64,000 nucleotides of DNA from Hyphomicrobiaceae bacterium (GTDB lineage Bacteria > Pseudomonadota > Alphaproteobacteria > Rhizobiales > Hyphomicrobiaceae), in assembly GCA_025359165.1 (NCBI GenBank), contig JANYHG010000101.1:1-64000 (forward strand), given 5' to 3'. The position numbers and the translations under genes are program-made. The notes under the pieces were generated by a model. The model did no database searches. It was not told the DNA's origin and saw only the letters and a list, made by a program, of their open reading frames with translations. Positions 36,312 to 47,167 of the stretch are shown one piece after another (positions within the stretch are counted from its first letter, which is position 1; each line of letters opens with the position of its first letter).

Positions 36312-37010
36312 TCAGGCAAGGCCCGCCAGCACTTGGCGGACGACGGCGAGAGGATCGAGGGCGGCGGTGATGGGGCGTCCGACGACGAGGTGGGTAGCGC
36401 CCGCAGCGATGGCTGCGGCGGGCGTCATGACGCGGGCTTGATCCTTATCGGGGCCAGCCGACAGACGGATGCCCGGCGTGACGATGAGAAAGTTCGGCCC
36501 GACGGCTGCGCGCACCTCTGCGGCCTCGTGGCCCGACGCGATGACGCCATCGAAACCTGCGGCTTTGGCCATCAACGCGCGACGCACGACAAGTTGTGCC
36601 GGCGTGGTGTCGCCTATGCCTTGCTCGACAAGATCGAGCGCATCAAGGCTGGTGAGAACCGTCACCGCCAACAATTTCAGCCGGCTCGAACCACGACCCA
36701 TGACGGCGGCATCCAGCGTTTTGCGATCGGTGCCGTGGACGGTGAGATAGTCAAGGCCGAGCGTGCCGATGTTCGCGACCGCCTTCTCGACAGTATTCGG
36801 AATATCGAGCAGCTTCATGTCGAGGAACACCGACTTGCCGTCGCGCTTGAGTTGCTGTGCCAGGGCGATACCGCCGCCGAAGAGCAATTCGAGACCTATT
36901 TTATAGGCCGCCACGTCATCGCCAAGTTTGTCTATCAGCGCTTCCGCCGCCGTCACGTCGGGCATATCGAGGGCGACGAACAGGCGGGCATCGGCGCGAG
37001 ATGTGGTCAT
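36312..37010 (-). CDS. pyrF: Orotidine 5'-phosphate decarboxylase PyrF
   Basis: Decarboxylates OMP to UMP, the last step of UMP synthesis. The 232-residue TIM barrel has FVALDMPDVTAAEALI, the catalytic array VFLDMKLLDIPNTVEKAV (D-x-K-x-x-D-I-x-N-T), YLTVHGTDRKTL, VTPGIRLSAGPDKDQARVMT and ATHLVVGRPITAA. It is convergent with the ghrA-like gene and 33 bp downstream of gloB on the same strand. Confidence 0.97.
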   Translation of the reverse strand: MTTSRADARLFVALDMPDVTAAEALIDKLGDDVAAYKIGLELLFGGGIALAQQLKRDGKSVFLDMKLLDIPNTVEKAVANIGTLGLDYLTVHGTDRKTLDAAVMGRGSSRLKLLAVTVLTSLDALDLVEQGIGDTTPAQLVVRRALMAKAAGFDGVIASGHEAAEVRAAVGPNFLIVTPGIRLSAGPDKDQARVMTPAAAIAAGATHLVVGRPITAALDPLAVVRQVLAGLA

Positions 37011-37927: not shown

Positions 37928-38890
37928 TCAACCGTGGTCGGCGGGCGGAGTGCCGTGGGTGTGAAAACTCTCGATCGTCTTTAGGCCCCAGGCTTGCCCC
38001 TTCTTGCGCTCGGTTTCGGTCCAGGTCACCGGTTGCCAATCGGGTGCCAGGATCAAACGCGCGCCAGCATTGGCAACTTCGACGCGATTGCCGGCGGGTT
38101 CGTAGACGTAGAGGAAGAATGTCTGCTGCACCGCATGTTTGTGCGGGCCGGTTTCGATGTGCACGCCGTTTTCGAGAAACATATCGGCAGCCTGCAGAAT
38201 GTGCTCGCGCTGGTCGACGGCATAGGTGACGTGATGGAAACGGCCGCGCGCCGCCGTGCTGTCTCGCGTGTAGGCGACGTCGTAGGACTTGTTGTTGACC
38301 GTGAACCAGCAGCCCGCAAGCGCGCCGTTGTCGAGTACGATCTGCTCCGTCACACGGCTGCCGAGCGCGTTGGGCAGGAAATCCCGGATCGCCGACACAT
38401 CCTGCGCCAGCAGATTGAAGTGATCGAGACGGCGCACACCGGCACCGCGACCGTGCGTGCGTTGCGCCTGATTCTTTAGGGCCGGGCGCTCGTTGGCCGG
38501 TGGCTCGTAGCGCTTGGTGTCGTAGTAGATTTCAAAGATGTGGTTGTCGGGATCGCGGAATCGATAGGCAGAGCCGTGACCGAGATCGCCCTCGGTCCAG
38601 CCGATACCTGTGCCGAGTTTCTCGATGGCGGCGACGCGTCGCTGCAAGGCTTGAGGAGAGGCGCATCGGTAGCCGACATGGGCCAGACCCGTCGTGTGCG
38701 ACGCGGTGAGCTTGAGGGTGTGGAACTCGTAGTCGTCGAACGCGCGCAGATAGACGGAATCGCCGGCGCGGCCGCTCTCGGTCAATCCGAGCAAGTTGAC
38801 GAAAAAATCGAGGCTTTGCTCGGGTTTGTTCGTGAGCAGCTCGACGTGGCCGAGATGAGCTACATCGTAGCAGGGTTCTATGGGTGTCAT
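37928..38890 (-). CDS. Type I extradiol (catechol 2,3-dioxygenase-like) VOC family protein
   Basis: 320 residues in two VOC modules. The N-terminal module has VAHLGHVELLTNKPEQSLDF and FRDPDNHIFEIYYDT. The C-terminal module carries a plausible iron triad: His157 (RRLDHFNLLA), His220 (RGRFHHVTYAVD) and Glu271 (GNRVEVANAG), spaced as in catechol 2,3-dioxygenase. It should cleave an aromatic diol next to a hydroxyl pair, but the substrate cannot be read. It is the last gene of the galD-galB run, starting about 24 bp after the galB stop, and probably belongs to the same aromatic pathway. Confidence 0.85.
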   Translation of the reverse strand: MTPIEPCYDVAHLGHVELLTNKPEQSLDFFVNLLGLTESGRAGDSVYLRAFDDYEFHTLKLTASHTTGLAHVGYRCASPQALQRRVAAIEKLGTGIGWTEGDLGHGSAYRFRDPDNHIFEIYYDTKRYEPPANERPALKNQAQRTHGRGAGVRRLDHFNLLAQDVSAIRDFLPNALGSRVTEQIVLDNGALAGCWFTVNNKSYDVAYTRDSTAARGRFHHVTYAVDQREHILQAADMFLENGVHIETGPHKHAVQQTFFLYVYEPAGNRVEVANAGARLILAPDWQPVTWTETERKKGQAWGLKTIESFHTHGTPPADHG

Positions 38891-38914
38891 CTTCTGATCA
38901 ACCTAGTGATGGGG

Positions 38915-39640
38915 TCAGCCCAAAAGTTCCAATGCCTCAGGGAAGAGCCGCTGATAGGCCTCGCCATAGGTCATGGCGCGACCGGAGTTGCGGCCACCCT
39001 GCATACCGCGATTGAGGGCGACGCGCGTGTAGTAGTCCCAGAGATGTTTCTGGGCGGCCAGCACTTCGAAGGCTTTGCGCTTGGTTTCCCAGACATCGTC
39101 GATATTCAGAATGACAGTCGGTTTGAAGTTGCACTGCTCGGGCTGATGTGGCTCGAACAGAAACATGGGTGGTGCGGAATAGGCGCGATCCGGATCCGGC
39201 TTGTGACCCGCAGCCTGTGCGATGATGCGGGCTTCCTGAGCAAAGCGCGTCGCTTCGGGATGATCGACGTTGTAGGGGTCCTCGAGTGCGTGCGTCAAAA
39301 TAAACGACGGGCGCAATTCGTGCATCACGTCGATCGTGCGTTCGAGCATGGCGGGCGTCGTGTGCAGTGGGTAATCGCCGGCATCGAAAAACTCGATTTC
39401 AGCGCCGAGTGTTTGCGCCGCACGTTCCGCCTCTTCGCGACGTCCCGCCTTCACCTCGGCCAGCGAAATGCCCCGCTTTTTCCAGGCGAACTGACTCTCG
39501 CCGCGTTCGCCGTACGAAAGGCAGAGAATTTTCATCCGGTAGCCCCTGGCTGCATGCAAGGCGATGGCACCGCCCGCGCGCCAGACGAAGTCGCCGGGAT
39601 GCGCCGAGACGACGAGGCCGGTTTTTGACGCATGTGCCAT
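38915..39640 (-). CDS. galB: 4-oxalomesaconate hydratase, GalB type (PIG-L deacetylase fold)
   Basis: Predicted zinc enzyme hydrating 4-oxalomesaconate to 4-carboxy-4-hydroxy-2-oxoadipate in gallate / protocatechuate 4,5-cleavage catabolism. The ~241-residue sequence has the PIG-L/LmbE motif VVSAHPGDFVWRAGGAIALH. It shares with Pseudomonas putida GalB, as I recall that sequence, CLSYGERGES, RREEAERAAQTLGAEIEFFD, DPYNVDHPEA, AQEARIIAQAAGHKP and FEPHQPEQCNFKP. The family otherwise holds deacetylases, but these stretches and the neighbouring galD favour GalB. A GGGAA favours the ATG at 39640 over one two codons upstream. Confidence 0.87.
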   Translation of the reverse strand: MAHASKTGLVVSAHPGDFVWRAGGAIALHAARGYRMKILCLSYGERGESQFAWKKRGISLAEVKAGRREEAERAAQTLGAEIEFFDAGDYPLHTTPAMLERTIDVMHELRPSFILTHALEDPYNVDHPEATRFAQEARIIAQAAGHKPDPDRAYSAPPMFLFEPHQPEQCNFKPTVILNIDDVWETKRKAFEVLAAQKHLWDYYTRVALNRGMQGGRNSGRAMTYGEAYQRLFPEALELLG

Positions 39641-39682
39641 TTGCATTTCCCATCGATCCCAAAGTTAATCTGCTGTGCGCGA

Positions 39683-40786
39683 TCATTCCGCAGCGATGCC
39701 ACGCACCGTTGCGTCGACAAACGGCACATAGGCCGTGCCGTCAAATAAAACTCGCGCTGTGCGGATCAAGCCGGCGCTTTCAAAAGTCGGCGCTGCAGCA
39801 GTGCCGCCAACTTCGACGGCGACACTGAATTCGCCGGTGGGATGCTCGACAGAGATCACCTTGGAGCGACCAATTGGGATCTGCGCTACACTCGCGGCGG
39901 GGGAGTCCGGCAGCAGACACGCCGTCGCCACCGTCACTGCCGCGAACACCCCGATGGAGGCGTGGCACTCGTGCGGGATGAAGCTGCGCGTCGCGACATG
40001 GCCGCCGTTTTTGGGGGCTGCCACCAGTGCGATCTTCGGCACGACCTTCGCCGCGACGTCGCCAAGATTCATTATGGGACCGGCAGCGAGCCGTATTTGT
40101 TCGAGGCGGGCTTTGAGTTCGAGATCCGCATTCAATTGATCGCGCGGCTCGTAGCCGGTGCGACCGACGTCGCTCGCCCGCAACACGATGACCGGCATAC
40201 CGTTGTCGATCAACGTGCAGTCGACTCCTGCGACGCGGTCGACGGCGCGACCGGTCGGCAGCAGCGATCCACAGACCGAACCTGCGGTATCGACGAAGTC
40301 GATGGCAATCGGGGCTGCCGTGCCGGGTACGCCGTCGATACGCGTCGCGCCGCCATACTCGACCCGGCAGTTCGGCGTGCAAACCTTGAGTACCGCAATA
40401 GTCCCGGTGTTCAGCGTGCGGACGCGCACCGGAGTGATGCCATCGCGTGCCGCTATCAGACCGCGCTCGATCGCAAACGGTCCGACGCCGGCCAGAATGT
40501 TCCCGCAGTTCGGCGTCGTGTCGACCATCGGCTTGTCGACGCCAACTTGTGCAAACAGAAAATCGATGTCGGCACCCGGGGTTGCTGCCGGTGCCACGAT
40601 GGCGACCTTGCTCGTCAACGGGTGCGCCCCGCCGAGGCCATCGACTTGCCGCGCGTCGGGCGATCCCATTACGGCCAGCAACAAACGATCGCGGCTGATC
40701 GCATCGCGGGGCAGATCGCGCGCCAGAAAATACGCGCCTTTCGATGTGCCGCCGCGGATCAACATGCATGGAAGTCCGATCTGCAC
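39683..40786 (-). CDS. galD: 4-oxalomesaconate tautomerase, GalD type (PrpF family)
   Basis: Predicted to tautomerise 4-oxalomesaconate between keto and enol forms ahead of GalB. 367 residues with the PrpF-family start IGLPCMLIRGGTSKGAYFLA, LLLAVMGSPDARQVDGLGGA, DTTPNCGNILAGVGPFAIE (the conserved Cys), VCGSLLPTGRAVD, LIDNGMPVIVLRASDVG and FIPHECHASIGVFAAVTVAT. The start is GTG at 40786, backed by AGGAG seven bases upstream. It is first in the galD-galB-dioxygenase order and divergent from the carbamoyltransferase gene. Confidence 0.9.
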   Translation of the reverse strand: MQIGLPCMLIRGGTSKGAYFLARDLPRDAISRDRLLLAVMGSPDARQVDGLGGAHPLTSKVAIVAPAATPGADIDFLFAQVGVDKPMVDTTPNCGNILAGVGPFAIERGLIAARDGITPVRVRTLNTGTIAVLKVCTPNCRVEYGGATRIDGVPGTAAPIAIDFVDTAGSVCGSLLPTGRAVDRVAGVDCTLIDNGMPVIVLRASDVGRTGYEPRDQLNADLELKARLEQIRLAAGPIMNLGDVAAKVVPKIALVAAPKNGGHVATRSFIPHECHASIGVFAAVTVATACLLPDSPAASVAQIPIGRSKVISVEHPTGEFSVAVEVGGTAAAPTFESAGLIRTARVLFDGTAYVPFVDATVRGIAAE

Positions 40787-40992: not shown

Positions 40993-41019
40993 TTGCAAAA
41001 TATCCCTTATTGCTATAGT
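40993..41019 (+). promoter_or_regulatory. Candidate promoter of the carbamoyltransferase-exporter pair
   Basis: TTGCAA (40993-40998) and TATAGT (41014-41019) lie about 40 bp before the ATG at 41059, in an A+T-richer part of the 272-bp divergent gap. The 15-bp spacer is short for a sigma-70 promoter, so confidence is low. Confidence 0.3.
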
Positions 41020-41058
41020 TAAAGAAGGGTGAATTTCGCGTCTCGGGAGCATTAATAC

Positions 41059-42045
41059 ATGGCGTCGGTAGCTTTTGGACTGTCTCATAAAACTGTTCGT
41101 GCACGCAAAAATTACAGGCCCCGCCATACTCTTTCAGCGTCGACCATCGACATCGACCATGTCGATGAACTTTGCGAGTTGGCCTATCGATACGAGACCG
41201 GCGATGCGCCCCATGGCGACTTGTCCCGCAAAGCGATTGCCTTGCTGTTTTTTCAACCCAGCACGCGCACGCGCGCCGGCTTCCAGGTGGCGACACTGGC
41301 GCTCGGCAGCAATGTGGTCGGCTTCGAGAACATGTCTGCGTCGCGGTCCAATCAGCGCAGCGGGGAAACGCTAGAAGACTGCGCAGCTGTTTTCTCTCGG
41401 CTTTGCGACGCCATCGTCGTCCGCCATCATGAAGCCGGGGCTGCCATGCGGATGGCGAGCACGTCGGCATGCCCGATCATCAACGCGGGTGACGGCTGGA
41501 ACGAACACCCGACACAGGCGCTTGTCGACATTTATTCACTGCGGCGCGGCCTCGGAACAATCAAAGGAAAAAGCATCGCTTTTGGTGGTGATCCGCGTGG
41601 GCGTACGGTGCGATCGCTCATCCTGCTGCTTCGGCTCGAAGCGCCGAAAGAAATCGTATTTTGCCCGCCGGTGCACGTGCCGCTGCCGGAGGACCTCGTG
41701 CAGGTCATAGAAAGTCATCAGATCCGCTTACGTATCGTTTCCAGTATCGACGACGCACTGGTGCAGTGCGATGCAGTGATGATGGCGCCGTACGACATGT
41801 CCGATATCGGCGAAGCTGCCAGCTCTGGATATGTTTCGCCTCGAACGACACCGCTAAGTCACGTCATCACGTCTGAAAAAATCGAGTTGGTGGGTTCACG
41901 CTCGCTCTTGTATCATCCGTTGCCACGGCAGGACGAAATCCACCCGTCTTGCGACGATTTAGAGCAAGCGATGTATTTCGAGCAGGTGCGACTATCGAAA
42001 TTCATGCGTATGGCCATTCTCGGCAATACTTTGCTGAATACGTAA
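41059..42045 (+). CDS. Aspartate-carbamoyltransferase-like enzyme with altered acceptor site
   Basis: 328 residues of the ATCase/OTCase fold. Carbamoyl-phosphate residues are present: FFQPSTRTR (Ser68-Thr71), VVRHHE (Arg122), NEHPTQALVD (His150, Gln153), GRTV (Arg182) and the HPLPRQDEI loop (286-294). By alignment with E. coli PyrB, positions that handle aspartate differ. Lys84 of the SLGKKGE loop becomes Ser101 (SNQRSGE), and Arg229/Gln231 of TRVQKE become Pro244/Asp246 (MAPYDM). The ornithine motifs of OTCase (SMG, HCLP) are absent too. It is probably a carbamoyltransferase with another acceptor rather than pyrimidine-pathway PyrB. It abuts an EamA transporter, stop to start. Confidence 0.85.
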   Translation: MASVAFGLSHKTVRARKNYRPRHTLSASTIDIDHVDELCELAYRYETGDAPHGDLSRKAIALLFFQPSTRTRAGFQVATLALGSNVVGFENMSASRSNQRSGETLEDCAAVFSRLCDAIVVRHHEAGAAMRMASTSACPIINAGDGWNEHPTQALVDIYSLRRGLGTIKGKSIAFGGDPRGRTVRSLILLLRLEAPKEIVFCPPVHVPLPEDLVQVIESHQIRLRIVSSIDDALVQCDAVMMAPYDMSDIGEAASSGYVSPRTTPLSHVITSEKIELVGSRSLLYHPLPRQDEIHPSCDDLEQAMYFEQVRLSKFMRMAILGNTLLNT

Positions 42046-43071
42046 ATGGGTGAAGGTAAGCTGCCAATCGCGCCGAACCTGCGCTTACTCAAAGTCCTGG
42101 CCTGGATGTCCGGAGCGCTCACGTCGTTCGTGTTCGCTGCGGTGTCTATTCGTGAGCTCTCGCAATCTTTGAATGTTTTCGAAATCAACGTCTGCCGCAC
42201 AGGTGGCGGACTGTTCGCGCTTATCGCGGCCATGTGCGTCGTCAAATCTCTCAGATGTGGGCTGTCGCTCAACGACATGCCGCAACACCTCTGGCGCAAC
42301 GCCGTGCACGCCACTGGCGGATTTTTCTGGACGCTTTCGATTTTCACGCTGCCACTGGCGACCGTGTTTTCATTAGAGTTTACAGCACCGGCCTGGGCGG
42401 CAATCATGTCGATGGCGGTTTTGGGCGAGCGGGTCAGCGTCAACGCCATCGTAGGGTTGGTGGCAAGTTTCATCGGAACATTGATCGTACTGAGGCCATC
42501 ACCAGACTCGTTCGATATCTTCGCGCTGTTGCCTCTGGCTGCAGGATTGTGTCTCGGCCTTTCCGCATTGCTTACCCGCCGTCTCACGCGAACTTTTGGC
42601 GTCTTTGCGATCCTGTTCTGGATGATGATCATCCAGTTGATCATCAATTGTGTCGGTGCGCTGATGATCGTCGACGCGGCGAGGCTCAGTGAGAGTTTGA
42701 CGCCTCCAAACGTCCTTGCGGCCATCGTGCTGGCGCTCGCGGGTTTGAGTTCGCAGCTGTGTCTGTCGAATGCCCTGAAGATCGGGGAGGCGAGCCTGGT
42801 CATGCCGCTCGATTTCCTGCGCGTGCCCCTGATCGCGGGCGTGGGTGCACTCAACTATGAAGAACCGTTCGACCACTGGGTGATGATCGGTGCAGCGGTC
42901 GTCGCATCTGGAGTTCTCATTGGCCTGCCGAGGCCAAGCGCTCAACATATTCAGCTGCGCGGTCGCAAGGTAGAGAACTCACGACGTCACGCCGCCCGCA
43001 GCAGACTTCCCAAGGCCACCGACAACTCGAAAGAAATCTCGGTCGCCGGCACTGGACGGCTGAATAAGTAG
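42046..43071 (+). CDS. EamA / DMT family transporter
   Basis: 341-residue inner-membrane protein with about ten hydrophobic segments in two EamA halves. TPLATVF-type spacing is seen in FTLPLATVFSLEFTAPAWAA (first half), and LSNALKIGEASLVMPLDFLR (second half) is a standard DMT signature. Such proteins usually export metabolites or drugs. The ATG follows the carbamoyltransferase TAA with no gap, implying coupled translation. The last ~45 residues (from PRPSAQHIQLRG) are hydrophilic and lie partly antisense to the end of the GGDEF-EAL gene (85-bp overlap). Confidence 0.9.
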   Translation: MGEGKLPIAPNLRLLKVLAWMSGALTSFVFAAVSIRELSQSLNVFEINVCRTGGGLFALIAAMCVVKSLRCGLSLNDMPQHLWRNAVHATGGFFWTLSIFTLPLATVFSLEFTAPAWAAIMSMAVLGERVSVNAIVGLVASFIGTLIVLRPSPDSFDIFALLPLAAGLCLGLSALLTRRLTRTFGVFAILFWMMIIQLIINCVGALMIVDAARLSESLTPPNVLAAIVLALAGLSSQLCLSNALKIGEASLVMPLDFLRVPLIAGVGALNYEEPFDHWVMIGAAVVASGVLIGLPRPSAQHIQLRGRKVENSRRHAARSRLPKATDNSKEISVAGTGRLNK

Positions 43072-45851
43072 CCTTGAAATTCGGTACACCCGGCCTCGAT
43101 GGCTGTGGCGAACTGTTGCTGGGTCTCGATACCCTCTGCTGTTACGCTCATTTTAAGCGCTTTTGCCATTGCAACGATCGCTGTAACGATATCCCGCGAA
43201 CTCTGTTGCTCACCCAAGTTCTGAATGAAGGAACGGTCTATTTTCAGTTTCGTGAATGGGAAGCTCTGCAAATAGCTCAATGAGGAATAGCCGGTTCCGA
43301 AGTCGTCCAGCGCGACGCCGACGCCAATATGGCGGAACTGATGCAATGCTTCGAGGACGTCTTCATTGGCGTCCAGGAGAAGGCTCTCCGTCACTTCCAA
43401 CTCTAAACGGTGCGGCTGCAAATTCGCATCAGACAGTGCTTCGGCCACCATTGCGGCGAGCCCGGCACGGCGAAATTGCAGCGGAGACAGGTTCACGGCA
43501 ACGCGGACATCATCAGGCCATTGCATCGCTTGCATGCAGGCCTCGCGGACGACCCACTCGCCGATGGAATGAATGAGCCCTGTTTCCTCGGCTATCGAAA
43601 TGAAATCCAATGGTGACACCAGACCGCGGGCCGGATGCCGCCAACGGAGAAGCGCCTCCGCGCCTTTGATCGTGCCGGTTTTGACGGAGACAAAAGGTTG
43701 ATAATGAAGCTCCAACTGATTCAAGGCCAGTGCTTGACGCAAATCTACTTCAATATCGCGCCGCGTCTGCATTTTTGCATTGAGGGCGGGCTCGAAGAAT
43801 TGATAATCCCCTCGACCGAGTTCCTTCGCCCGGTAGAGGGCAAGATCCGAGTGCTTCAGGAGTTCCTCCGAGCTTGTCCCGTCCTCCGGCGCGAGCGCGA
43901 TGCCGATGCTCGCTCCTCTGACGATGGACGATCCGTCGATCTCGTAGGGTGCGCCAAGCGTTGCGATCAATCGCTTGGCGAGAACAATGGCGTCGTCAGG
44001 CGATTTTATGTCGCTCTGGATGACAGCAAATTCATCGCCACCAAGACGAACCACCGTATCATTCGTCCTTACGCACAGGCGCAATCTGTCAGCTACCGAT
44101 AGCAACAATTTGTCACCGACTGCATGACCGAGCGTGTCGTTGACGGACTTGAAGTCATCGAGATCGATGAAATGCAGGGCCGCTTTATGTCCGCGCAGAC
44201 AGCGCGTGAGTTCTGTCGCTAGAACCTCGCCAAGGACCACGCGGTTAGGAAGGTCAGTGAGCGTGTCGTGACGAGCAAGATGGATTATTTTTGCTTCGCG
44301 CTGGCGTTCGAGCGTCACGTCACGATGAGTGATGACCCAGCCGCCCGTCAGCATGGATTGGCAATTCACGGACAACATCGTCCCGCTATGCAGTTCGGTG
44401 ACGAAACTAGATGCTTGTGGATTTGCAAACGCGGCCGTGTAGGCCTCAATTGCCTTTTTGAACAAATCCTTGGAAGCAACGCCGCTATCGATCCTGACTG
44501 CGGCAAGGTCTGCAATCGTCATGCCGGTGTGTACGTCGACACGGTTGATGCCATGCATGGACAGGGCTTGATCATTACACAAGATCAATCTCCCCTGACC
44601 ATCGAACATCGATAGACCTTGATTCATATTGTTGATGGCGGCGTCGAGTTGAAGGTGCTTGACCTGCAGCTCCGCTTCCCGGTAGGCGAGCGTCACATTT
44701 TTCTGCGCCAGCGTTTTCAGCGCGGATTGCAAGTCGGTGATATCCTCAAAGGTTCCGAGGGCGCCTCCGGTCGCCAAAGGGGTTACCTTGACGTTGATCG
44801 TGCGACCGTCCGCAAGCTCCCACTGCGAGACACTTTCGAATTTCGCACCACGCATGCCGAAGAAGTTCACGAGCACATCTTCGTCGTCGTTCAGGACAAC
44901 CAGACTGTTGGTTCGCACGAGCCGCTCGATATCGTTTACGGTAGTGTCGGCCCCGATAGCTTTTCGATCGAGGGCGAAAGTCGCGGCGAACTGGCTATTC
45001 GCCAACTGCACGCGCCCCTGCGAATCGATCATCAGCAAGCCCTGAGACATATTCGAGAGGGCCAGATCCAATTTGAAATTCTGCTCTGAAATTACACTTT
45101 CGCGTTCGATGATCTCGGTTCGATCACGTCCGATGCAGAAATATTTCCGTTCGCTTTCGGACCAGGCACACGACCATGCGACCATTACGTCACGGCCGCT
45201 CTTGTGCGACAGGCGCGCCTCAAAACTCCTAGTAACCGAATCCGATTTCACCTGCCACATTACAGCTTCAGCGTAGGACCGGTCAGCCTCCATCAAAAAT
45301 GCCAGCGCATTTTGCCCGACCAACTCCGCCGGAAGGAAACCGAAAATGGCGTAACAGCTGGGTGTAACTCGAACTATATTGCCCCGATCATCTGTAATCA
45401 AAATCAAGTTTTTCGAAGTATCGAATAAGATTCGCCGCTCCTCGATCTCCTGTTGAAGCTCTTCGGAAACGAGCGTCTTTTTATATTCCACTTGGAATAT
45501 TCTGGTTCGCTCCCGGCTGAGCGCGGCGGTTCCCAGGATGAGGACCGCACCCAACGCTGCAAATGCAATGCACAAAGCACTCAGCAGCGTGAAAAGCTCG
45601 GCATCTTGTGCGACTGGCCGCGCACTGTGAGTGGCGAATGCGACCTGGAATGACGCCGCGAGCGCGCCGAGATAGGCACCGACCGATGCTGCAAGCAGTC
45701 TCTTCTGCGAAGCGTCCAGTTTGCGAAGCAGCAAAACGAGATTTGCGATGTGCAAGACTCGTACGACCCTTCGAGAGCAACTAAATCGACGAAGCGTCTG
45801 GACGATCGCGGTCGAAATATCCGCGCCTAAGAAGAACCGTTTACTCTGCAT
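42987..45851 (-). CDS. PAS-PAS-PAS-GGDEF-EAL cyclic-di-GMP signalling protein
   Basis: 954 residues. Two membrane helices lie at about 53-73 and 86-111, followed by PAS domains at about 140-250, 260-375 and 400-515. The GGDEF domain (about 525-685) has an intact GGDEF at 604-608 and an RTND inhibitory site (RxxD) five residues before it. The EAL domain (about 700-945) has AEALLRW (732-736), LEVTES and DDFGTGYSS (849-857). Both catalytic motifs look intact, so it could make or degrade c-di-GMP depending on PAS input. Its 3' end overlaps the convergent EamA gene. Confidence 0.95.
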   Translation of the reverse strand: MQSKRFFLGADISTAIVQTLRRFSCSRRVVRVLHIANLVLLLRKLDASQKRLLAASVGAYLGALAASFQVAFATHSARPVAQDAELFTLLSALCIAFAALGAVLILGTAALSRERTRIFQVEYKKTLVSEELQQEIEERRILFDTSKNLILITDDRGNIVRVTPSCYAIFGFLPAELVGQNALAFLMEADRSYAEAVMWQVKSDSVTRSFEARLSHKSGRDVMVAWSCAWSESERKYFCIGRDRTEIIERESVISEQNFKLDLALSNMSQGLLMIDSQGRVQLANSQFAATFALDRKAIGADTTVNDIERLVRTNSLVVLNDDEDVLVNFFGMRGAKFESVSQWELADGRTINVKVTPLATGGALGTFEDITDLQSALKTLAQKNVTLAYREAELQVKHLQLDAAINNMNQGLSMFDGQGRLILCNDQALSMHGINRVDVHTGMTIADLAAVRIDSGVASKDLFKKAIEAYTAAFANPQASSFVTELHSGTMLSVNCQSMLTGGWVITHRDVTLERQREAKIIHLARHDTLTDLPNRVVLGEVLATELTRCLRGHKAALHFIDLDDFKSVNDTLGHAVGDKLLLSVADRLRLCVRTNDTVVRLGGDEFAVIQSDIKSPDDAIVLAKRLIATLGAPYEIDGSSIVRGASIGIALAPEDGTSSEELLKHSDLALYRAKELGRGDYQFFEPALNAKMQTRRDIEVDLRQALALNQLELHYQPFVSVKTGTIKGAEALLRWRHPARGLVSPLDFISIAEETGLIHSIGEWVVREACMQAMQWPDDVRVAVNLSPLQFRRAGLAAMVAEALSDANLQPHRLELEVTESLLLDANEDVLEALHQFRHIGVGVALDDFGTGYSSLSYLQSFPFTKLKIDRSFIQNLGEQQSSRDIVTAIVAMAKALKMSVTAEGIETQQQFATAIEAGCTEFQGYLFSRPVPATEISFELSVALGSLLRAA

Positions 45852-46075
45852 CTCGCATGCTCACCAGGACGCTTCGGTCGCGACTCCGGTAAAGGCAATA
45901 CGTTCGGTGCATATACTTCGAACGCCAACTTTAACAACCAGAGATCGCATAAACGGAACGTACATCCTAGTTATTAAGGAACCACACCCAGCAGGTAGTA
46001 GATTTTAAATGCATTTCCCAAGTCGGAAGTCCCAGATGTGTGTCCGTGCGAGCCAGCTTCGTCCTTGCTTAAAGC

Positions 46076-47167
46076 CTATTTCGGTTTCCACGCCTTGGCC
46101 TCTGCAACAATGGCGGGCGTATCGAAGGAGTTGACCTCATCGAGCAACTCGTTCGTCACAAAATCTGCGTAAGGTATCGACTGCTTGATCACGCCGTTTT
46201 TCAGCAGCCAAGCGACGAACGACGTATAATTTTCGGCGACGTTGTCGCCCCACCGCGTTGCACCGACCTTCGCGTAATCCCAGCTTTTTGCCCGGGCTTT
46301 CAGAGTTGAAACGTCATCCCGCAGGGCCGTTTCCTCGTCCTTGCCGGTGGCTTTCGACTGGGGATAAACCTCCCACATGATCCGAATGGCAGCCTCGGGA
46401 TTGGCCATGGCGAACGTCGTGCCCATGGCATAACCTTTCGCCAAAGCGACGGCCTGCTTACGTTTGATTTTCAGCGTTTCAGCGAGAGCTATGAAGCCGT
46501 TGGATGGAAATTTAGCGATTTCCGGATGGGCAAAATAGCGCAACTTTACGCCGGCGTTCTCGACCAACGCGTATTGTGTGTCGAACTGGGAGAGGGCGTC
46601 GACCTGTCCGCCAGACATCAGCGCAGCCGTCTGGCCGCCTTCTCCGGCGACGACGATGGACACGTCCTTGGTCGGGTCCATGCCGGCGTCGGCTACCAAG
46701 GCACGCGCCACGATGGCACCGGCCGACCCCATGCCGATCACACCGATTTTTTTGCCTTTGAGATCCGCGACGGTTTTGAGCGGGCTGTTTTCTGGGACGG
46801 TAATGCCGTAGATGTTGCCTTGATACGCCGTGTAGAAGAACTTGATGTCGACGCCTTGCGGGCGGATGACCAGGACCGGCTCGGCGCTCGGCAATGCGAA
46901 CGGAACCTCGCCGGTCGCAACGAGCTTGGTGCAGTCGCCGGAGCCGGGCAGTGGCACCAGCTCGACCTTGATCCCGGCCTTTTCGAACCAGCCCATCTTG
47001 GTCGCGATGGCGAACGGCGTCGAGGCGGAGGAAACCGTTCGCGCACACCATCCGACGCGTATCGTCTCGATCGGGGCTTGGGCTTGTGTCGCTCCGGTTG
47101 TAAAAAACAATGCGCCGAAGGTCAGCGCGACAGCAGCGCGCCTGGCACCGTTCACTCGAGTTTTCAT
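46076..47167 (-). CDS. ABC transporter substrate-binding protein, NMT1/TauA/SsuA-like
   Basis: 363 residues from the ATG at 47167 (MKTRVNGARRAAVALTFGAL), with a signal peptide ending near ATQAQA. The mature part is a type-II binding fold: IRVGWCARTVSSASTPFAIA, KMGWFEKAGIKVELVPLPGS, GEVPFALPSAEPVL, DLKGKKIGVIGMGSAGAIVA and GGQTAALMSGGQVDAL. The family covers sulfonates, taurine, nitrate, pyrimidine precursors and aromatic acids; the ligand is unknown. It overlaps the permease by 4 bp and is the last gene of the operon. Confidence 0.9.
   Translation of the reverse strand: MKTRVNGARRAAVALTFGALFFTTGATQAQAPIETIRVGWCARTVSSASTPFAIATKMGWFEKAGIKVELVPLPGSGDCTKLVATGEVPFALPSAEPVLVIRPQGVDIKFFYTAYQGNIYGITVPENSPLKTVADLKGKKIGVIGMGSAGAIVARALVADAGMDPTKDVSIVVAGEGGQTAALMSGGQVDALSQFDTQYALVENAGVKLRYFAHPEIAKFPSNGFIALAETLKIKRKQAVALAKGYAMGTTFAMANPEAAIRIMWEVYPQSKATGKDEETALRDDVSTLKARAKSWDYAKVGATRWGDNVAENYTSFVAWLLKNGVIKQSIPYADFVTNELLDEVNSFDTPAIVAEAKAWKPK

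Follow-up and report, generated by a model that had tools for sequence, protein, structure and literature searches.

A carbamoyltransferase that keeps the site where carbamoyl phosphate is bound while losing the one where aspartate should come to meet it raises a simple question: what does it now carbamoylate, and to what end? Such an enzyme was noticed by the initial annotation in a stretch of 64,000 nucleotides of Hyphomicrobiaceae DNA, the whole of which is termed here the window. The 328-residue product matches the Pfam families OTCace_N (125 bits) and OTCace (50 bits), and its nearest matches, with phmmer as with Foldseek, are the ATCases of Arabidopsis, Methanocaldococcus, Pyrococcus and E. 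coli, at approximately 30-35% identity and with a Foldseek TM score of about 0.83. An AF2 model (pLDDT 85) confirms the fold, the active site lying between subunits and the acceptor loop, residues 250-255, being modelled at a pLDDT below 50. The protein nevertheless stays under the cut-offs of the ATCase equivalogs, with 210.7 bits against 236.95 for TIGR00670 and 199.9 against 263 for PRK00856.

Residues were compared in an alignment of 74 sequences comprising E. coli PyrB and some 60 other ATCases. As had been read from the letters, STRTR (68-72), RHHE (122-125, where R122 stands for Arg105), HPTQ (150-153) and HPLPR (286-290) are all present, and with them every residue that binds carbamoyl phosphate. 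With the ATCases of the ATC II branch, the E. coli and archaeal type, the enzyme also shares its fold and the equivalent of Arg167, the residue that positions the alpha-carboxylate of aspartate in the E. coli enzyme (PMC4581275). The aspartate subsite, by contrast, has been replaced. The three substitutions first noticed, Lys84 to Ser101, Arg229 to Pro244 and Gln231 to Asp246, hold in the alignment, and two more have to be added, Glu50 to Gln66 and Arg234 to Asp249. They extend to the whole clade of the gene, which counts eight members from several Hyphomicrobiales lineages: in place of the RxQxER and Lys84 that bind aspartate, Pro244-Tyr245-Asp246-Met247-Ser248 is invariant (PYDMSD here), the residue at position 101 is always Ser, Thr or Val, Gln66 always occupies the Glu50 position and Arg234 is replaced by Asp or Glu. 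Two arginines of the 80s loop, Arg96 and Arg100, are both new and invariant. The ordinary ATCases of the alignment, whether from alphaproteobacteria, archaea, Peregrinibacteria or E. coli, all retain the glutamate, KGE[TS] and RxQxER, and none shows any of the changes at Lys84, Arg229 and Gln231.

Table 1. Features of the carbamoyltransferase locus, in window coordinates
Feature	Position	Strand	Basis and remarks
ATCase-derived carbamoyltransferase, acceptor site rebuilt (pseudo-ATCase)	41059..42045	+	ORF, Pfam, alignment, tree; closest solved structures are ATCases
Q66-P-STRTR (68-72), carbamoyl-phosphate loop retained, Glu50 replaced by Gln66	41254..41274	+	Alignment; Q invariant in the 8 members and sister gene L149
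80s loop R96-x-N98-x-R100-[STV]-G-E, Ser101 at the Lys84 position	41344..41367	+	Alignment
HPTQ (150-153), carbamoyl-phosphate site retained	41506..41517	+	Alignment
Arg182, equivalent of E. coli Arg167, retained	41602..41604	+	Alignment; role from PMC4581275
240s loop P244-Y-D-M-S-D-I-G251 in place of RxQxER	41788..41811	+	Alignment
HPLPR (286-290) retained	41914..41928	+	Alignment
EamA (DMT) transporter	42046..43071	+	ATG directly after the carbamoyltransferase stop codon; Pfam
PAS-PAS-PAS-GGDEF-EAL protein	42987..45851	-	Convergent, 85 bp overlap with the EamA 3' end; GGDEF, I-site and EAL motifs intact

The genome to which the window belongs has three carbamoyltransferases: the present one, an argF on contig C52, downstream of an aminotransferase gene, and a separate, canonical pyrB on contig C158, with KGET and RLQRER, followed by a dihydroorotase-like reading frame. 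The second pyrB for which the initial annotation proposed to look is therefore there. Each other genome carrying the gene also has exactly three, in a count where one genome was entered under two labels. Since the enzyme is a third paralogue, with a canonical pyrB elsewhere, and since the clade as a whole has replaced the aspartate subsite while keeping the carbamoyl-phosphate site intact, there is good support for an enzyme that is not the ATCase of the cell and very likely uses another acceptor. On this point the initial annotation, which had proposed a carbamoyltransferase of unassigned substrate, was well inspired, but it missed the tie to EamA and GGDEF-EAL genes described below. Its further remark that no pyrimidine gene stands beside the locus makes a weak argument, because pyrF lies 4 kb away (36312-37010, minus strand), although pyrF was not seen beside the relatives of the gene.

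Among known carbamoyltransferases, a simple copy of pyrB is ruled out by the residues and by the separate pyrB, while OTCase, AOTCase, SOTCase, putrescine carbamoyltransferase and YgeW are ruled out by motifs and model scores; the OTCase motifs SMG and HCLP are absent, as previously stated, with PYDMSDIG and HPLP instead. Non-standard acceptors are the trait shared with YgeW and with the carbamoyltransferases acting on putrescine, 2,3-diaminopropionate and 2,4-diaminobutyrate, the first of these three having also Gln at the Glu50 position. These three, however, belong to the OTCase branch, unknotted and with HCLP or HDLP, YgeW differs in being knotted, and the scores obtained with the NCBIfam models of all four fall far below cut-off. 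There was no PADLOC match that would indicate a defence system. A closer comparison is with the published pseudo-ATCases, which form three groups marked by the motif pairs HPLA/AIA, H[ST]LP/GX[SC] and HSLP/VXP (PMC4016543, Table 1), and which, the ureidoglycine carbamoyltransferase of Rubrobacter included, have purine or hydantoin genes and a carbamate kinase nearby (PMC4016543). Judged on these published motifs, the enzyme fits none of the three groups, that of ureidoglycine carbamoyltransferase included: it has HPLP/PYD, and its neighbours are EamA and GGDEF-EAL genes. Taken broadly, the term pseudo-ATCase does apply to the enzyme, which branches at the root of ATC II, has lost RxQ and coexists with a genuine ATCase; its motif pair lies outside the published groups.

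In a tree rooted with OTCases, built without the pseudo-ATCase sequences of PMC4016543, the clade and a divergent sister from the genome G115 are monophyletic (UFBoot 99) and group with the E. coli and archaeal ATCases (UFBoot 100), while the pyrB resident in alphaproteobacteria falls elsewhere; the gene is therefore no recent copy of the pyrB of its host. Its carriers are few, soil and water bacteria. Orthologues 60-67% identical were found in five contigs, all from Hyphomicrobiales, in a collection of 84,980 species, and in three genomes of a single genus among 397 genomes of the order; there were none in the 102 other genomes of the family, none in the class sample and no close homologue in the plasmid searches, the phylum sample yielding only the G115 relative. 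As these searches covered genome samples in which mostly the top candidates per genome were scored, such absences are no proof. This patchy distribution fits horizontal acquisition. The G+C content of positions 41000-46500 drops to 0.53-0.58, compared with about 0.62 around, a dip which hints at acquisition too, even if the GC3 of the genes within it stays in the range of the window. Two copies from the Prosthecomicrobium group differ by a dN of 0.016 for a dS of 0.230, and we can therefore consider the gene to be under purifying selection.

A GGDEF-EAL gene adjoins every member of the clade as well as the divergent sister, usually together with EamA, and this in four gene orders: carbamoyltransferase-EamA facing a convergent PAS-GGDEF-EAL gene in the window; carbamoyltransferase-EamA-GGDEF-EAL on one strand in L007 and L009; GGDEF-EAL-carbamoyltransferase-EamA in three Prosthecomicrobium-group genomes; and, in L008 and L010, the carbamoyltransferase, a convergent GGDEF-EAL gene and an MFS gene of the MHS type. 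At the latter two loci, as at that of G115, EamA is missing. In the window, the transporter and the carbamoyltransferase are predicted to be translationally coupled (Table 1), and EamA orthologues (51-53% identity) are found only at carbamoyltransferase loci among the 11 genomes compared, the next best protein elsewhere reaching 38%. The EAL motifs of the partner proteins are intact, and so are the GGDEF motifs, except in G115 (SGDEF). Outside the window these partners are orthologous to one another (49-70%) and begin with a membrane domain of about six helices, which found no match in Pfam or, fold search included, in the PDB; the PAS-type protein of the window is not their orthologue. Of 249 genomes searched in the order, three were found to have the membrane-type orthologue, and it is precisely these that carry the carbamoyltransferase; the sister gene of G115 starts 5 bp after a GGDEF-EAL gene with the same N-terminal membrane domain. 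So conserved a tie makes it likely, as far as gene context can tell, that the enzyme is part of a signalling module rather than a stray metabolic enzyme. The module was not found in the literature searched, mostly outside subscription journals, and a review of the stimuli of c-di-GMP (PMC8846402) contains no carbamoyl or ureido term.

Metabolic genes are also met around these loci. Directly upstream of the GGDEF-EAL gene and of the sister carbamoyltransferase of G115, a homologue of GTP cyclohydrolase II (URC1), a DUF1688 protein and a uracil phosphoribosyltransferase (UPRT) make up a uracil catabolism set of the URC type (L150:3773-10216). A dihydropyrimidinase and an amidase of the hydantoinase/carbamoylase family lie 4 kb from the carbamoyltransferase in a MAG of Alsobacter (L009:709-3632). 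In the window, a ring-cleavage cluster adjoins the module (37928-40786, minus strand), with a catechol 2,3-dioxygenase and a 4-oxalomesaconate tautomerase, both NCBIfam equivalogs above cut-off, and a PIG-L deacetylase.

What a membrane GGDEF-EAL protein might be doing beside such an enzyme is suggested by the relatives of its membrane domain. Searched alone against 72,556 plasmids, this domain had seven matches, EAL proteins of Methylobacterium, Bosea and Sphingomonas, and hhalign gives it as homologous to their N-terminus (99.7%, E 2e-25). A crotonase gene adjoins the EAL gene, convergent or in tandem, at all seven loci (L151-L157), which amount to about three independent lineages, since the four Methylobacterium loci are related. 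The two crotonases compared with RpfF structures matched them with E-values of 1e-48 and 1e-54 (other hydratases, about 1e-15 or worse), while these plasmid enzymes remain under the NCBIfam cut-off for the RpfF equivalog, at approximately 160-207 bits against 550. It should be kept in mind that RpfF makes DSF quorum signals and that RpfR, its receptor for BDSF, is a PAS-GGDEF-EAL protein whose gene is convergent with rpfF in Burkholderia (PMC4504480), and that the receptor binds the synthase directly (PMC6361424). The pairing of an RpfF-like crotonase with a membrane-anchored GGDEF-EAL protein in these seven plasmids is worth recording for itself: it has the look of an alphaproteobacterial, membrane-bound version of RpfF-RpfR, on which our literature search found no paper. 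The link between the receptors that accompany carbamoyltransferases and those that accompany crotonases is decided by the N-terminal domain only, supports in the tree of the GGDEF-EAL domains ranging from 8 to 68.

The carbamoyltransferase thus occupies the slot of a signal synthase, inasmuch as the membrane-domain relatives of its partner adjoin RpfF-like crotonases, and this position, an argument by association, is the main reason for the reading that we tentatively prefer, at a confidence that falls somewhat short of an even balance. The enzyme would be an active carbamoyltransferase, derived from the ATC II branch of ATCases, that no longer uses aspartate and transfers the carbamoyl group to another amine, most probably that of an acceptor resembling an alpha-amino acid. 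Arg182, the Arg167 equivalent, would hold the carboxylate of this acceptor, the rest of which would face Pro244, Tyr245, Asp246 and Asp249 and might be neutral or cationic, because the positive pocket for the beta-carboxylate became Pro/Tyr/Asp. The ureido product would be a small signal that the co-translated EamA transporter exports (at two loci an MHS-type MFS gene is nearby) and that the GGDEF-EAL protein encoded alongside perceives, with a change in c-di-GMP as the outcome; catalysis and acceptor, as well as the direction of transport and the perception of the signal, are what we infer here. The design would parallel that of RpfF, the synthase, and RpfR, the receptor, where likewise the enzyme gene adjoins, often convergently, that of a GGDEF-EAL protein with intact catalytic motifs. 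It differs in that the enzyme is a carbamoyltransferase and not a crotonase, in that a transporter usually belongs to the set, and in the sensor, which is here either a membrane domain that matches nothing in Pfam or the PDB or, in the window, PAS. Several observations run against this signal reading. The parallel is weaker at the window itself, because the conserved receptor is missing there and the partner is a different, PAS-type GGDEF-EAL protein without the membrane domain; the plasmid crotonases score below the RpfF equivalog cut-off, and neither partner of that pair is known to sense DSF; EamA is missing at L008, L010 and G115; and the uracil catabolism set of G115, together with the dihydropyrimidinase and carbamoylase genes of L009, would suit a role in metabolism.

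Such a role is the alternative to be taken most seriously, unlikely as we hold it to be. The enzyme would then help the cell to take up or degrade some amino acid or ureido compound, moved by EamA or the MFS protein, while the GGDEF-EAL protein would adjust lifestyle to supply, with no signal passing between cells. Amino acids, amines and carboxylates are indeed common cargo of EamA and MHS-type MFS proteins, catabolic carbamoyltransferases exist (PMC4581275), and the G115 and L009 neighbours just mentioned point the same way. Yet pyrimidine or ureido genes vary or are missing at most loci, and the membrane domain of the receptor is paired elsewhere with RpfF-like synthases. Furthermore, no carbamate kinase is found among the annotated neighbours of the loci. 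This speaks against catabolism and makes phosphorolysis for ATP, the course taken with ureidoglycine carbamoyltransferase (PMC4016543), less likely.

It is improbable, though not absurd, that the protein became a regulatory relic, binding carbamoyl phosphate with little or no turnover and docking as a sensor on the GGDEF-EAL protein in the way RpfF docks on RpfR, a contact for which there is precedent (PMC6361424). Lys84 and Arg229, needed for catalysis in ATCase, are lost after all, and the sister of G115 has NPLP where HPLP is expected. The main clade, however, retains STRT, Arg105, His134, Gln137 and HPLP, the full set by which carbamoyl phosphate and the tetrahedral intermediate are handled, its new 240s loop is nearly invariant, as befits a substrate site, and a transporter is usually co-encoded.

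We give very little credit to the idea of an ATCase, specialised or kept as a back-up, where residues such as Arg96 and Arg100, the new invariant arginines of the 80s loop, would stand in for Lys84, Arg229 and Gln231: the fold and the closest relatives are those of ATCases, but a canonical pyrB lies beside a dihydroorotase-like frame in the same genome, Pro-Tyr-Asp and Asp249 place negative charge where the beta-carboxylate would bind, and the context is not that of pyrimidine synthesis. Least credible of all is adjacency by chance in genomes rich in GGDEF-EAL genes, for although some hold about 40 GGDEF/EAL candidates, giving approximately 5-7% chance per adjacency, and a GGDEF gene lies within 1.5 kb of one of 47 ordinary carbamoyltransferase loci (50 counted, minus three belonging to the clade), the neighbour is there at every locus, the set is kept through four shuffled orders, the membrane-type protein and the carbamoyltransferase co-occur exactly in the same three genomes of the order, and the adjacency at the window is not arbitrary, as its genome has only two strong GGDEF-EAL matches (chance about 0.3-1.7%, by a simple Poisson estimate).

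Carried to its end, the signal reading leads to a bolder proposal, which we put forward with somewhat greater reserve: a novel class of signals between bacterial cells, N-carbamoyl (ureido) compounds made by a repurposed ATCase, exported by EamA and read by GGDEF-EAL receptors whose sensor domain accompanies, in other bacteria, RpfF-like synthases of fatty-acid signals, in which case synthases of unrelated folds would have been exchanged on a single receptor family. If true, the fold of a core enzyme of pyrimidine synthesis would have been recruited for making a signal, a new chemical class would join the few small molecules directly sensed by the enzymes of c-di-GMP metabolism, and a role would be indicated for a membrane receptor domain that has no known ligand. 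Even if the product turned out to be a nutrient, this family would provide a clear case of an ATCase-like enzyme that is not an ATCase, recognisable by a definite set of residues and joined to a genetic partner that lends itself to testing.
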